Source: a virus
IMG/VR virus record: IMGVR_UViG_3300028388_002306
Span: 1-20,034 of that record
DNA length: 20,034 bases
Direction: 5' to 3' (one strand)
Shown: piece after piece, positions 414-17,983 of the stretch
How positions within the stretch are numbered: position 1 is the stretch's first letter
Layout: each line of letters starts with the position of its first letter
Made by a program: the position numbers and the translations under genes
Notes under the pieces: generated by a model
What the model saw: the letters and a program-made list of their open reading frames with translations, nothing else
Told to the model about the DNA's origin: nothing
Databases searched by the model: none

Positions 414-896
414 ATGAGCAGAAAGAAAACAGAAGCCGCGAAAAAATTACAAGGTACCTATCGAAACGACCGCAAAGAACAAACCGTCGCCGGTATTGAC
501 GAAATACCGCCGCCGCGTAAATTCTTAAGCCGTAAGGCAATGAAAGATATTTACTATTTTATTGCGGAACACTTAAAGAAAAACGCAAGCTTACAACACG
601 CCGACAGCCTACTAATAAGCCAAGCCGCGCTAAATGTTTATTTACTTGAAAAGGCAAGCCGTGACGTAATTAAACACGGCACCACCTACAAAAGTAAGGA
701 CTCCGACTACATCGGATTAAACGCTTATTATACTGTTTTCCGACGGGAGCGGGAACAATTAGAAAAGTATTGTAAAGAGTTAGGGATTGGCATTGCAAGC
801 CGTGAAAAAATACACGCTTTCGCGGCCGAAATATTGCCCAAAGAAGAAGCCGAAACAAAGGATCCCGTCGCAAAAGTTCGATCGATTAGAAGCTAA
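414..896 (+). CDS. phage terminase small subunit, P27 family
   Basis: This is the small subunit of the DNA packaging terminase, which recognises phage DNA and loads it onto the large subunit. The 160-residue length fits the P27 family. The N-terminal motif LQGTYRNDR (residues 12-20) matches the 'L-x-G-T-x-R-x-D-R' signature near the start of that family. It is followed by a proline-rich linker (EIPPPRKFLS) and then a helical body with many Lys, Glu and Ala residues. The gene starts 2 bases after the previous one. Its TAA stop overlaps the ATG of the large terminase by one base (TAATG), which suggests translational coupling. Position directly before a clear large terminase makes the call strong. 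Confidence 0.85.
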   Translation: MSRKKTEAAKKLQGTYRNDRKEQTVAGIDEIPPPRKFLSRKAMKDIYYFIAEHLKKNASLQHADSLLISQAALNVYLLEKASRDVIKHGTTYKSKDSDYIGLNAYYTVFRREREQLEKYCKELGIGIASREKIHAFAAEILPKEEAETKDPVAKVRSIRS

Positions 897-1237
897 TGGA
901 GTTAGTCAAAGACTATATAAACCGAGTTGTTGAAGGGCGGGAGGTAATTTGCCAAAATGCCCGCGCCGCCGTTTTGCGGCATTTGTCAGACCTGGAAAAG
1001 CAAAGCCGGGAAGATTACCCGTTTTATTTTGATGAAGCCGCCGCAAGGCGGGTTATTGAGTTCGTGAAAATTTGCCGACATACAAAAGGGCAATGGATGG
1101 GTAAAAAATTCTTATTGCAGCCGTGGCAAGCTTTTATCATTGCTTGTGTATTTGGGTGGAAGAAAAAAAAAACGGTTTCAGGCGTTTTAACCGCGCATAT
1201 ATTCGCGTCGCCCGGAAAAATGGTAAAACGGAACTAA
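896..1237 (+). CDS. terminase large subunit, N-terminal part (frame-disrupted)
   Basis: This 113-residue frame holds the N-terminal segment of the large terminase, the ATPase-nuclease motor that packages and cuts phage DNA. Residues up to about 92 read like a Terminase_1-type protein: a helical lead, then KGQWMGKKFLLQPWQ and an ACVFGW segment that normally precedes the ATPase core. After the 10-A run at 1163-1172 this frame loses similarity (TVSGVLTAHIF) and stops at 1235-1237, before the Walker A motif. The rest of the protein continues in the -1 frame (1123-2667). Reading one base twice at the A-run gives one continuous 590-residue terminase, a normal length. The start is fixed by the TAATG overlap with the small subunit. 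The break could be a programmed frameshift, an undercounted homopolymer or a real inactivating mutation. Confidence 0.85.
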   Translation: MELVKDYINRVVEGREVICQNARAAVLRHLSDLEKQSREDYPFYFDEAAARRVIEFVKICRHTKGQWMGKKFLLQPWQAFIIACVFGWKKKKTVSGVLTAHIFASPGKMVKRN

Positions 1238-2667
1238 TGGCGGCTTTGGCGTTATACGGATTGGTTGCAGATGATGAAATGGGCGCGGAGGTGTACTTTG
1301 TCGCCACCAAAAAAGACCAGGCAAAGGTCGGGTTTAATGCTACAAAAAAAATGCTTTCTTACTTACAACAGGATAGCCCCATTGCACGCGCCGAATTTAA
1401 CTACAACAGCCACACAATTTACAGCGAAAAATATAACAGCTTTTGTCGGGCAATGGGAAGGGATAGTAAAAGCGAGGACGGGCCGAGCCCCCATTTTGTT
1501 ATTGTTGACGAATACCACGCCCATATTGACGACCAAATGGTTAACGTTATGGAATCCGGTATGGGTGGGCGCCAACAACCGCTAACCCTGACAATTACGA
1601 CGGCCGGATATAATGTTTTTGGGCCTTGCAAATTGTTTGATGATAACATAGCCAAACCAATACTAACCGGCGGGTTGGATGATCCGACAACGTTTGCAAT
1701 AATTTACGAAGCAGAAACCCCCGAACACGAAAAAAGCACAACGGCGGCTTTAGTGGCAACCGAAGCCGAAAAAAATACTATTTGGTGGGATGATGAGACA
1801 CAATTACAATACGCTAACCCCGGCATTTCTAACGGTACCCCGGATTTAGACTATTTGCGGGATCGAATGCGAAAGGCAGTAAATGAGGGCGGCGAAAAAG
1901 AAACCGATTTTTTAACAAAAAACCTAAACGTATTTACCAGGGCGAAAAAGGTATGGATACAAAGCAAATATTACAAGCAAAACGTCGAGCCGGTTTCCTT
2001 TAAGAAGATGAAAGGTAAAACGGCCTATTTAGCGTTTGACCTTGCAAAAGTTCGAGATATTACCGCTTTAAGCGTGTATTTACCACAGCAACCCGGGCTC
2101 GAGTTGCCCCGGTTATACCAATTTTACTGGGTACCAATAGAAAACGCCCGCGAACGTCAGAAAAAAGACAAAGTACCCTATTTGAATTGGATAAAAGGCG
2201 GGCAAATACGGGCCACAGAGGGAGACAGCGTCGACCACGATGTTTTTATGCGTGACGTTTTAGAAATATGTGAAAATTTAAAGGTAAAGGGGATTGCTTA
2301 CGACCCGTGGAACGCCGAAACGGTACAACAGTATTTTAAAAAACAAGGCTATAAAACCTTTGAGTTTAGACAATATACAACCCTCTTTAATGAGCCTTTA
2401 ACGCACTACGAACTCGCAATAATAAGGGGGGAAATACGGTATAATTTTAACCCCGTAACGGCGTGGATGTTAGGCAATGTAACCGTCTACCGGGATAAAA
2501 ACGAAAACCGGAAAATTGACCGGGATAAAAGCCAAGAAAAGGTCGACGGCATTGTTACCGATATAATGGCAATCGGCCTATATTTAAAACTAACCCAAGC
2601 AAAGAAAAAGTTTAAGCGGCAAGGGTTACTAATGATTAACAATGAAAGCGAAAAAAGTGGAAGTTAG
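1123..2667 (+). CDS. terminase large subunit, ATPase and nuclease part (-1 frame)
   Basis: This frame holds the catalytic body of the large terminase. The true in-frame content begins near 1171, after the A-run; the first 16 or so residues from the ATG at 1123 are an out-of-frame shadow. In the joined 590-residue protein, the Walker A motif is ARKNGKT at residues 106-112 and the Walker B is VIVDE with D205-E206. The C-terminal RNase H-like nuclease shows three acidic sites: D382 in FDLAKVRDIT, D470 in AYDPWNA and D556 in GIVTDIMA. All key residues are present, so selection appears to maintain function despite the frame break. The coding frame overlaps the next gene by 26 bases. Assignment to the Terminase_1 type (HK97/P27-like phages) is confident; whether translation crosses the A-run is not known. 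Confidence 0.9.
   Translation: MASFYHCLCIWVEEKKNGFRRFNRAYIRVARKNGKTELMAALALYGLVADDEMGAEVYFVATKKDQAKVGFNATKKMLSYLQQDSPIARAEFNYNSHTIYSEKYNSFCRAMGRDSKSEDGPSPHFVIVDEYHAHIDDQMVNVMESGMGGRQQPLTLTITTAGYNVFGPCKLFDDNIAKPILTGGLDDPTTFAIIYEAETPEHEKSTTAALVATEAEKNTIWWDDETQLQYANPGISNGTPDLDYLRDRMRKAVNEGGEKETDFLTKNLNVFTRAKKVWIQSKYYKQNVEPVSFKKMKGKTAYLAFDLAKVRDITALSVYLPQQPGLELPRLYQFYWVPIENARERQKKDKVPYLNWIKGGQIRATEGDSVDHDVFMRDVLEICENLKVKGIAYDPWNAETVQQYFKKQGYKTFEFRQYTTLFNEPLTHYELAIIRGEIRYNFNPVTAWMLGNVTVYRDKNENRKIDRDKSQEKVDGIVTDIMAIGLYLKLTQAKKKFKRQGLLMINNESEKSGS
1163..1172 (+). other. A10 run at the terminase frame junction (candidate -1 slippery site or homopolymer error)
   Basis: Ten consecutive A residues follow GGTGGAAG. 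In the upstream frame they are read AAG AAA AAA AAA ACG; the similarity to terminases then resumes in the -1 frame as AAC GGT TTT. A run of A AAA AAA codons is a known type of slippery sequence for bacterial -1 frameshifting. The same junction would also result if the true genome had 11 A residues and one was missed. I see no clear downstream stimulatory hairpin. Confidence 0.6.
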
Positions 2668-9264: not shown

Positions 9265-9651
9265 ATGGCTAATTACCACACTTTAGAAATTGACGGGCGA
9301 AACGTTCCCGTTTCCTTTGGATGGGGCGCAATGGTAAAATTTGAGGAAAAAACCGGCGTAAGGTTTCCCGAGTTTCAGACCATGCTCGAAAAACAAGAAT
9401 ACCCAATGGGTTTACTTTTGGTGTATGTTTTAACCGGACTAATGGAAGGGGCCCGCAAAGCCGGGATCATTGCGGAGGATTGCCCATTTCAGACCGTTAC
9501 AGACGTTGCCGATTTTTTAGACGAACACCCCGACGCGTTGCTGAAAATTACAAACATTGCCCAAAGTGATAACGACGCTTTAGGAGATGAGAAAAAACCC
9601 GGGCCAAAAAAAAAGGGGCCCAAACCACCCCGCCCGCCCGCGAAGAAATAA
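9265..9651 (+). CDS. tail assembly chaperone, short (gpG-like) form
   Basis: A 128-residue protein in the position of lambda gpG, between the tail tube and the tape measure. It binds and chaperones the tape measure during tail assembly. The N-terminus (YHTLEIDGRNVPVSFGWGAM) and the following KFEEKTGVRFPEF segment are typical of Gram-negative siphovirus chaperones. The last residues are basic and Pro-rich (EKKPGPKKKGPKPPRPPAKK), encoded around the slippery site. Normal termination gives this short form; a -1 slip at 9609-9615 extends it into the frame ending at 9971. An alternative reading as an unrelated small tail gene is unlikely given the frameshift architecture. Confidence 0.8.
   Translation: MANYHTLEIDGRNVPVSFGWGAMVKFEEKTGVRFPEFQTMLEKQEYPMGLLLVYVLTGLMEGARKAGIIAEDCPFQTVTDVADFLDEHPDALLKITNIAQSDNDALGDEKKPGPKKKGPKPPRPPAKK
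9606..9615 (+). other. programmed -1 frameshift site (A AAA AAG)
   Basis: Nine A residues and a G are read in the chaperone frame so that the last two codons form the heptamer A AAA AAG (9609-9615), the classic bacterial -1 slippery sequence. Flanking GGGCC (9601-9605) and GGCCC (9617-9621) are complementary, so the run may sit in a hairpin loop. The -1 frame is open from 9615 to 9971. Confidence 0.75.
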
Positions 9652-9971
9652 TACAAAATTTTAGTTGGGCGCGGTTGCTGCAAATGGCCGGGAGTATGGG
9701 GTGGACCCCCCAAACCTTTTGGGATAGCACGCCCTTCGAGTTCTTTAATATTTTGGAGGGCTTTATTGATTACCAGGACCAACTCCAGCGCAACGCATGG
9801 CGACAAACGCAACTTTTAGCCTTTTATCAGGTTATTACCGCCCCCCATTATACACAAGGGAGTCTAAAGGGCCCCGAAGATCTAATAAAAACTAAATGGG
9901 ATGATGAAAACACCGGGAATAACTTAAAAAGCCCGGACCAACTTATCGACAGTTTGTCCGGCGTTAAATAA
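9615..9971 (+). CDS. tail assembly chaperone, frameshift extension (gpT-like)
   Basis: This is the 3' portion of the long chaperone form. After the -1 slip the ribosome reads from 9615 with no stop until 9971, so the fusion (start 9265) would have about 235 residues. The segment carries the typical T-domain pattern: SWARLLQMAGSMGWTPQTFW followed by STPFEFFNILEGF, like the 'A-x-x-x-G-x-x-P-x-x-F-W-x-x-T-x-x-E' signature of tail chaperone extensions. An independent ORF could begin at TTG 9675 or ATG 9684, but neither has a convincing start and both would cut into the conserved segment. The next gene, the tape measure, starts 6 bases later, the expected order. Confidence 0.75.
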   Translation, partial: GAQTTPPAREEIIQNFSWARLLQMAGSMGWTPQTFWDSTPFEFFNILEGFIDYQDQLQRNAWRQTQLLAFYQVITAPHYTQGSLKGPEDLIKTKWDDENTGNNLKSPDQLIDSLSGVK

Positions 9972-12413: not shown

Positions 12414-13139
12414 ATGATAATTAACGCCGATTGTTTGCAAGTTCTTAAGGAGATGCAACCCGAGACAATAAACGCGGTTGTTACCGACCCCCCGTATTGT
12501 TCCGGCGGTTTCAATGAAGCGGGCAAAAGTAACGCAAAGGGGCAGGGGTTAAGAAGTGAAACGATAAGGGAGGAGGGTTGGTTTGTAAATGACAATATGA
12601 CAACGGCGGGCCTTGTTTGGCTTTTACGAAATGTAGCCGTAGAAGTGGAACGACTTTTAAAAACCGGCGGGTCGATGCTAATGTTTACGGATTGGCGAAT
12701 GGTGCCCCATTTAGCGCCCGCCCTGGAAAGTTCGGGTTTGAGGTATCAAAATATGATAGTTTGGGATAAAATGCAGGTGGGGCTCGGCCGGGGCTTTAGA
12801 TCACAGCACGAAATAATATTGCATTTTACAAAAGGCACCGGGGTATATTTTGACAAATCCACCGGAAACGTTTTACGATCGAAACGAATAAACGCCCAAA
12901 CGCGCCTCCACCAAACGGAGAAACCGGTAGAACTTTTGGCGCAACTTGTTAAAGTAGTAACCCAACCGGGCGACGTTGTTTTGGATCCTTTCGGCGGGTC
13001 AATGAGTACGGGCGAAACTTGCGTCCGGTTAGGTCGTAATTTTGTAGGGATCGACAAAGGGCGCGGGTATTGTGAAATTGGAAAAGAGCGACTAAAAAAA
13101 GCCGCCCAAACCATACAAACAAGTTTATTTAATGGCTAA
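12414..13139 (+). CDS. DNA amino-methyltransferase (N6-adenine or N4-cytosine), beta-class order
   Basis: A 241-residue S-adenosylmethionine-dependent DNA methyltransferase. The catalytic motif IV is DPPY at residues 25-28, within AVVTDPPYCSGGF. The SAM-binding motif I is at the C-terminal side, residues 191-196 in VVLDPFGGS, followed by TGETCVRLGRNFVGID. Catalytic motif before SAM motif, with a TEKPVELL segment in between, is the arrangement of the N6-adenine/N4-cytosine MTases of the beta class. No restriction endonuclease is adjacent, so it is an orphan, likely modifying phage DNA against host restriction. It sits inside the tail operon: it starts 9 bases after the tape measure and overlaps the next tail gene by 8 bases, so it should be made late. 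The target sequence cannot be read from the protein. Confidence 0.9.
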   Translation: MIINADCLQVLKEMQPETINAVVTDPPYCSGGFNEAGKSNAKGQGLRSETIREEGWFVNDNMTTAGLVWLLRNVAVEVERLLKTGGSMLMFTDWRMVPHLAPALESSGLRYQNMIVWDKMQVGLGRGFRSQHEIILHFTKGTGVYFDKSTGNVLRSKRINAQTRLHQTEKPVELLAQLVKVVTQPGDVVLDPFGGSMSTGETCVRLGRNFVGIDKGRGYCEIGKERLKKAAQTIQTSLFNG

Positions 13140-15982: not shown

Positions 15983-17983
15983 ATGTCCATTTTTATTAAG
16001 CTAAAAAAGATAGTAATAAACGCCTCCACGGTAATAGCACACCTAAAAACGTGGTTTGCCTTTAACGTTCGGCCGTTAATCGAAGGGGATGAAAGTAAAA
16101 GGGTTTGGGATGGGTCCAACAATGGTAACCACGCCGTTTTAAATGGGGGCTTTGCGCTTTCTTTTAATGGCACTAATACAGAGGTTACGGTTGGAGATAC
16201 AAACCAAACTATTAAAAGCCTTTGTTTTTGGTGCTACTTAAGCAGCGACACCGAGAAAATATTAGATTTAGACGGCGGCACCACAATGATAGAAGTAAAC
16301 GCGGGGGTTTTAACCGTTTCCGGGTTTACGGGGCTTACTCTTTACGTTAATGGATTTAACGACAATATTGTAACGCCTGGAAAATGGGAATTTATAGCAA
16401 TAACGGGGACGGCAGATGTAAACCTTTCTAACCTAATAATTGGTAAAATTGGCGCCACTTATTTTAACGGTCTTTTAGCCGGGTTAAAATTTTGGAGCGT
16501 AAGCGCCCCCGCCGCTAGCATATTGCACCAATACAAAAACCCGGAAAGATTAAGCCCCCCGGGGTTGTCTTTAGCTTATTTAGTGGCGTTTTATCCTTTA
16601 TCAGAGGCCGCAACCCTTCCAATTGTTTTAGACCATAGCGGGAACCACAACAACGGCCAAATTTTAGGCACGTTTACATATAATTTGAGTGAATCGGGGA
16701 TCTTACCAAATTTGCCTTTAGTCAATTTATCACAGCTTTTAACAAGCAACGGGAGCAGCTTTGTAAGTATTGCAAATGATGCAAGCCTGGACAATACAAC
16801 AGCCCTAACGGTTTCTTTGTGGTTTATTCGATCAGAAACAACAGCAACAAATCGGGGCTTATATCATAAAAACCCGGATAATACCGGCCTCCGGATTTTG
16901 TGCGACGCTGCAAACCTGACAATTAAAGGCGGTGGGGCGTCGTCTTTGAGCGTTCCCGGGTTTGACGAAATAGGCGTTTTATACAACTTAATTGTTACCG
17001 TAACGGGCACCACGGCAACGGCGTATAAAAACGGGGTACAAGTTGCAACGGGAACGATTGACGCTTTAACAAGCTTTGCCGGTTCTTTAAACATTGGGTC
17101 GGCTTTAGATGATACCACAACACGACCTTTTAACGGCCTTATTTTTAGCGCGGCGGAGTGGGGCATTGTATTAAATTCCGACCAAATAGAACAACTAACA
17201 AACGGTAATTTACCAACAACAATAGCTTTAGCGGATCTTTCCGGTTATTGGGAAAACAACAACGTTAAAACGTGGCCGGATCAAAGCACAAACGACAATA
17301 TAGGAACGCCAACGGGTACGTTAGAAACCATTATTTTACGGGAAGGAAAAACGACCGGTAAAAACCTGTTAGGGCTAACGTTGACCGACAAATGGCCTAA
17401 CGTGGGTAAATTTTACGGGGCGCAATATGCCCAAATAACTAACAACACCGGCTTAAATTTTTCGGATCCTTTAACCGTCGCTTTTTGGTACAAACACCAA
17501 ACCCCTAACACCGCCCAAACGATACTCGAGAAAGCCAACACTTTTAAAGCCGAAATATTAGCGGATAACACCTTCCAAGCTACTATCTACCATAGCGGCG
17601 GCACCGCCGAAATAATAAACCCAACAAACGAACTAACGGACTTTTATTGGGTGCATTTTGTTTTAACCTTTGACGGGTCAGTTATTCGCGTTTACAAAGA
17701 CGGCTTTGAGGTTGAAAACTTAACAATTGTTGCAAATATTGACACCGATACGACGGATATTTACATTGGCGCGGATAGTACCCCGGCAAATTACCTAAAC
17801 GGGTATTTTGACGAGTTTAAATTCCTTTGCAAAGCTTGGAGCAATACAGAGGTTTTAAATGAGTACACGAACACCGAACCGCAGCACAGAAATATCGAGG
17901 TAATAGGCGGTTTAATAATTGGGGAGCCTGGAAACTTTGGATTAGGCGACCCGGGATCAAATATATTTTTAGGCAATAACTAA
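15983..17983 (+). CDS. tail protein with three LamG-like lectin domains
   Basis: A 666-residue protein built from three laminin-G/concanavalin-like beta-sandwich domains, at about residues 40-190, 250-410 and 475-630. Each is preceded by a similar Asp/Asn/Gly-rich lead: WDGSNNGNHAVLNG, LDHSGNHNNGQILG and PDQSTNDNIGTPTG. Each also shows the family strands: FALSFNGTNTEVTVG, SFVSIANDASLDNTTALTVS and YAQITNNTGLNFSDPLTVAF. Later strands (YKNGVQVATG; YKDGFEVENL) and a closing motif (FNGLIFSAAEW; LNGYFDEFKFLCKAW) also recur. Such domains bind glycans or proteins, so this is probably a receptor-binding or adhesion component of the tail tip. It has no signal peptide. The start follows the preceding stop by 4 bases and the next gene starts 5 bases after the stop, so it is part of the tail operon. 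Confidence 0.85.
   Translation: MSIFIKLKKIVINASTVIAHLKTWFAFNVRPLIEGDESKRVWDGSNNGNHAVLNGGFALSFNGTNTEVTVGDTNQTIKSLCFWCYLSSDTEKILDLDGGTTMIEVNAGVLTVSGFTGLTLYVNGFNDNIVTPGKWEFIAITGTADVNLSNLIIGKIGATYFNGLLAGLKFWSVSAPAASILHQYKNPERLSPPGLSLAYLVAFYPLSEAATLPIVLDHSGNHNNGQILGTFTYNLSESGILPNLPLVNLSQLLTSNGSSFVSIANDASLDNTTALTVSLWFIRSETTATNRGLYHKNPDNTGLRILCDAANLTIKGGGASSLSVPGFDEIGVLYNLIVTVTGTTATAYKNGVQVATGTIDALTSFAGSLNIGSALDDTTTRPFNGLIFSAAEWGIVLNSDQIEQLTNGNLPTTIALADLSGYWENNNVKTWPDQSTNDNIGTPTGTLETIILREGKTTGKNLLGLTLTDKWPNVGKFYGAQYAQITNNTGLNFSDPLTVAFWYKHQTPNTAQTILEKANTFKAEILADNTFQATIYHSGGTAEIINPTNELTDFYWVHFVLTFDGSVIRVYKDGFEVENLTIVANIDTDTTDIYIGADSTPANYLNGYFDEFKFLCKAWSNTEVLNEYTNTEPQHRNIEVIGGLIIGEPGNFGLGDPGSNIFLGNN

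Follow-up and report, generated by a model that had tools for sequence, protein, structure and literature searches.

The large terminase subunit (TerL) of virus record IMGVR_UViG_3300028388_002306 is interrupted at a run of ten A residues, and the question that this locus raises is whether the virus makes use of the interruption by recoding, or whether it reflects the length of one homopolymer in one record. We analysed a stretch of 20,034 bases of this single virus record (hereafter the window), which carries late genes in the siphophage-type order TerS, TerL, portal, protease, capsid, connector and tail genes, and tape measure. The terminase is the sole broken gene among those checked, which include neighbouring head and tail genes. 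Were the break genuine and exploited by the virus, it would represent an unusual recoding in a terminase and would allow a direct test of motor dosage by slippage; however, a lone frame break that falls on the longest single-base run in a metagenome contig calls for a check of reads and relatives before it is called recoding.

The frame junction in the large terminase subunit

The small subunit (414..896, + strand; PF05119 Terminase_4, E 8e-10) precedes the N-terminal part of TerL, which is read in frame 0 (896..1237, + strand). Its residues 1–90 are terminase-like, include the Q-motif region LLQPWQAF and are matched by PHROGs 10517, 4914 and 9 (E down to 2e-28, reached by phrog_10517 over residues 3–89), whilst this part has no match in Pfam or among solved structures. 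Past the A-run the frame-0 residues are out-of-frame filler, ending at a stop codon at 1235–1237. The run itself, A10 at 1163..1172 (+ strand; AAG AAA AAA AAA ACG in frame 0), exceeds every other homopolymer in the window, the next in length being an A9 at 9606–9614. The −1 frame is free of stops over 1105–2664 and is then closed by a stop codon ending at 2667; between 1168 and 2667 (+ strand) it encodes the ATPase and nuclease, with matches to PF03354 (3e-25), PF20441 (2e-27), phrog_9 (3e-117) and the HK97 TerL structure 6z6d (2e-31). In most relatives the similarities stop at FGW and resume at G-x-RRF, which brackets the frame switch to 1160–1173. The first-pass annotation had described a terminase split by a −1 junction at the A10, and the frames, the run and the domain matches all confirm this.

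The joined protein, numbered with one extra Lys at the junction, has the composition of an HK97-type TerL: an ATPase and an RNase H-like nuclease, a Walker A-like ARKNGKT at residues 106–112, DE at 205–206 and three nuclease Asp residues. Most of the catalytic residues picked out from the sequence beforehand hold (Walker A 106–112, D205-E206, D382 and D470), but the proposed D556 is unconserved, and the invariant third nuclease Asp is instead joined residue 551 (D460 of P0002), in EKVDG. With the HK97-type enzymes (PF03354 plus PF20441; PDB 6z6d) the window TerL therefore shares the ATPase and nuclease motifs, and also the order small subunit, TerL, portal, protease and capsid. It differs in that its frame is interrupted at the A-run, in a loop before the ATPase core; one continuous frame is usual, though not strictly defining, for the type, and here the frame switches within 1160–1173.

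Relatives are uninterrupted at the junction

Besides the window, 227 related loci were collected from three viral-contig scans, one genome scan and four phage records. Both sides of the junction were found in 217 of these (viral contigs, prophages and phage records), which form the scored set, and the other ten had no usable match on one side. All 217 scored relatives carry both TerL halves in one open frame, and the longest A-run at their junctions is eight. The nearest are ~37% identical to the window, a distance at which they do not show the state of its immediate kin. Three loci (L005, L113 and L123) had appeared out of frame in a coarse test; in the corrected frame test no relative was broken, and L113 was left unscored, having no N-terminal match.

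The relatives also indicate what the junction encodes. The spacer between the W of FGW and RRF measures six residues in 106 relatives, seven in 60, five in one and 10–13 in 31, and the FGW–RRF stretch is a loop of variable length. The Lys-rich stretch of the window fits six or seven residues according to how the frames are joined; because spacer length varies among the relatives, in-frame lengths of the run yield normal spacers. Two of the loci, L015 and L016, are contigs of one uncultured Bacteroidetes MAG with similar, uninterrupted terminases, and their Lys-rich loops (GWRNKKTKFRRF and GWRIKKTKFRRF) resemble that of the window.

Searches for closer kin returned none. A scan of 2.9 million IMG/VR viral contigs for FGWK in the window's spelling, with a run of eight or more A residues after it, gave two matches, neither of them a terminase; megablast against phage records and single-protein scans of viral contigs with the portal and the capsid found no near relative, and an exact DNA pattern around the A-run, with a variable gap allowed, had no match. 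As the searches may omit records very near the window's own, missing close kin is not proof of absence. By the 217 relatives and the FGWK scan together, the A-run is peculiar to this one lineage or to this record, however long it truly is.

Chance and composition

A run of ten A residues is unremarkable for the composition of the window, as one occurs, with both strands counted, in 92 of 100 shuffles, whilst the switch of homology between frames exactly at the A10 is not a matter of chance. AAA makes up 76% of the Lys codons in this phage, and when KKKKNG was recoded synonymously with the phage's codons, 53% of trials gave 11 or more A residues in a row; given this preference for AAA, the run needs no special explanation. 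Coding runs of at least eight A number three against 7.3 expected, a count as low being reached in 1.3% of synonymous permutations, whereas coding runs of at least six A are not fewer than in the permutations. This mild shortage suggests that long A-runs are avoided in coding sequence, but it does not distinguish an A10 from a run one base longer. The only other run of nine A in coding sequence lies at the tail-chaperone site.

A length error or a recent indel as the probable explanation

From the position of the junction, the intact motifs and the uninterrupted relatives, we infer the cause of the indel as follows (the probabilities expressed here and below for each reading are our judgement). 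The break is probably an error of one base in the length of the homopolymer, or else a natural indel that arose recently at this hypermutable run, in an otherwise ordinary HK97-type terminase. The gene would be a single open-reading frame whose poly-lysine loop is coded by a long A-run, and the length of that run in the contig would set the two halves out of frame, either because it was miscounted during sequencing or assembly, or because slippage during replication recently produced an indel in some members of the population. Wild phages would then make TerL as one functional chain of ~590 residues. A break at a long homopolymer with intact relatives is the pattern that such an error or polymorphism leaves.

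The first-pass annotation had left the choice between slippage and a missed A; a missed A is favoured, and programmed slippage is unsupported, with every relative uncut and no run above eight. It had also proposed that uninterrupted relatives without the A-run would mark the break as a sequence error, and the scored set comes near to that state, being wholly uncut with runs of up to eight. Against this explanation, neither the A9 elsewhere in the contig nor an A8 elsewhere in the terminase gene has a length problem, and a run brought into frame by one more base would be prone to slip as well, in a gene that the phage needs.

Alternative explanations for the break

Should the ten A residues be real and fixed, transcriptional slippage would be the likelier means of rescue: unprogrammed slippage of the RNA polymerase would add or drop A residues, and a minority of mRNAs would encode enough full-length TerL to package DNA. 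We hold this to be possible, although a good deal less probable than a length error or recent indel. Bacterial runs of 9–11 A do slip, as in tssM1 of Citrobacter rodentium, where an A11 gives rise to mRNAs with 10–15 A and ~20% restoration of the frame in an interrupted essential gene, with no stimulators (PMC4256274). Comparable cases of rescue are cited from Buchnera and Blochmannia (PMC5009743), and expression by slippage has been proposed for a poly-A frameshift in the methyltransferase of Campylobacter phage CPt10 (PMC2853527). The A10 falls within the range of at least about nine A or T residues at the break that such a rescue takes; as in tssM1, an essential gene is cut just past a long A-run with the downstream frame intact, a variable loop would tolerate more or fewer lysines, and the downstream motifs are all in place. 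However, the tssM1 run is an A11 and its rescue was established with mass spectrometry, Western blot and GFP fusions, whilst the A10 of the window stands in a metagenome contig; no relative shares the run or the break, and the prior odds lie with a plain error or polymorphism in run length. It is very doubtful that the packaging motor is made only via poly-A slippage, an arrangement that would keep TerL low relative to the small subunit and leave a Q-motif-only fragment in excess.

Programmed −1 ribosomal frameshifting, which would yield a short product of 113 residues alongside full-length TerL at a fixed ratio, is just as improbable. An A_AAA_AAA heptamer does lie within the A10 in the right register for −1 slippage (1165–1171, + strand), and the tail chaperone of the same phage contains a canonical −1 site, but the RNA downstream of the heptamer folds worse than or like its shuffles (z +1.5, +0.5 and +1.2), giving no stimulatory fold, and neither the run nor the break is conserved in any scored relative or recovered as a terminase in the IMG/VR scan. 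The short product would be without Walker A, Walker B and nuclease, and a paper on frameshift prediction names no terminase (PMC10885494). Recoding has been suspected in another terminase, that of Streptomyces phage Hau3 (reviewed in PMC5009743), though there as translational bypassing tied to a UUA codon and not as poly-A slippage. We give still less weight to a dead gene in a defective phage or decaying prophage: the frameshift is what decay would predict, yet ~500 downstream codons run without a further stop, all invariant residues are kept and the adjoining head and tail genes that were checked are intact. Least credible of all is a split terminase of two separately translated polypeptides. 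A second polypeptide could start at one of the GTG or TTG codons that the −1 open-reading frame carries ahead of the ATPase, at 1123, 1144 and 1156, but the first ATG of that frame (1237) is already past Walker A, nearly all other main genes in the window start with ATG, and not one of the scored relatives is split here.

The tail-chaperone site and the tail region

Frameshifting by −1 in the tail-chaperone gene pair is well known in phages. In the window, the short chaperone product (9265..9651, + strand) lies before the tape measure and reads CCA AAA AAA AAG GGG in frame 0 at 9604–9618, where an A_AAA_AAG heptamer at the A9 (9609..9615, + strand) is probably the −1 frameshift site. The −1 frame is open over 9591–9968, and the second part of the chaperone in that frame (9675..9971, + strand) matches phrog_16333 (E 2e-10) and, weakly and just under the curated cut-off, PF09550 Phage_TAC_6 (E 7e-4). 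The first-pass annotation had drawn a parallel between this site and the terminase junction, raising the use of slippage in two genes. The terminase site does resemble the −1 frameshift of phage tail assembly chaperones (Xu et al. 2004, cited in PMC10885494) in its −1 direction and its A-rich sequence, so the shared direction and base stand. The evidence for the two is unequal, however: the chaperone site is near the tape measure and has the canonical A_AAA_AAG, whilst at the terminase junction the heptamer is only A_AAA_AAA and a stimulatory fold is missing. The chaperone site is a separate, classic −1 site.

Two further genes of the tail region were observed. Between the tape measure and the large tail gene there is a DNA methyltransferase gene (12414–13139; phrog_67, E 2e-58), an unusual location within the tail module. 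A tail-region protein of 666 residues (15983–17983) contains two concanavalin A-like (Laminin_G_3) stretches and is a candidate receptor- or glycan-binding protein.
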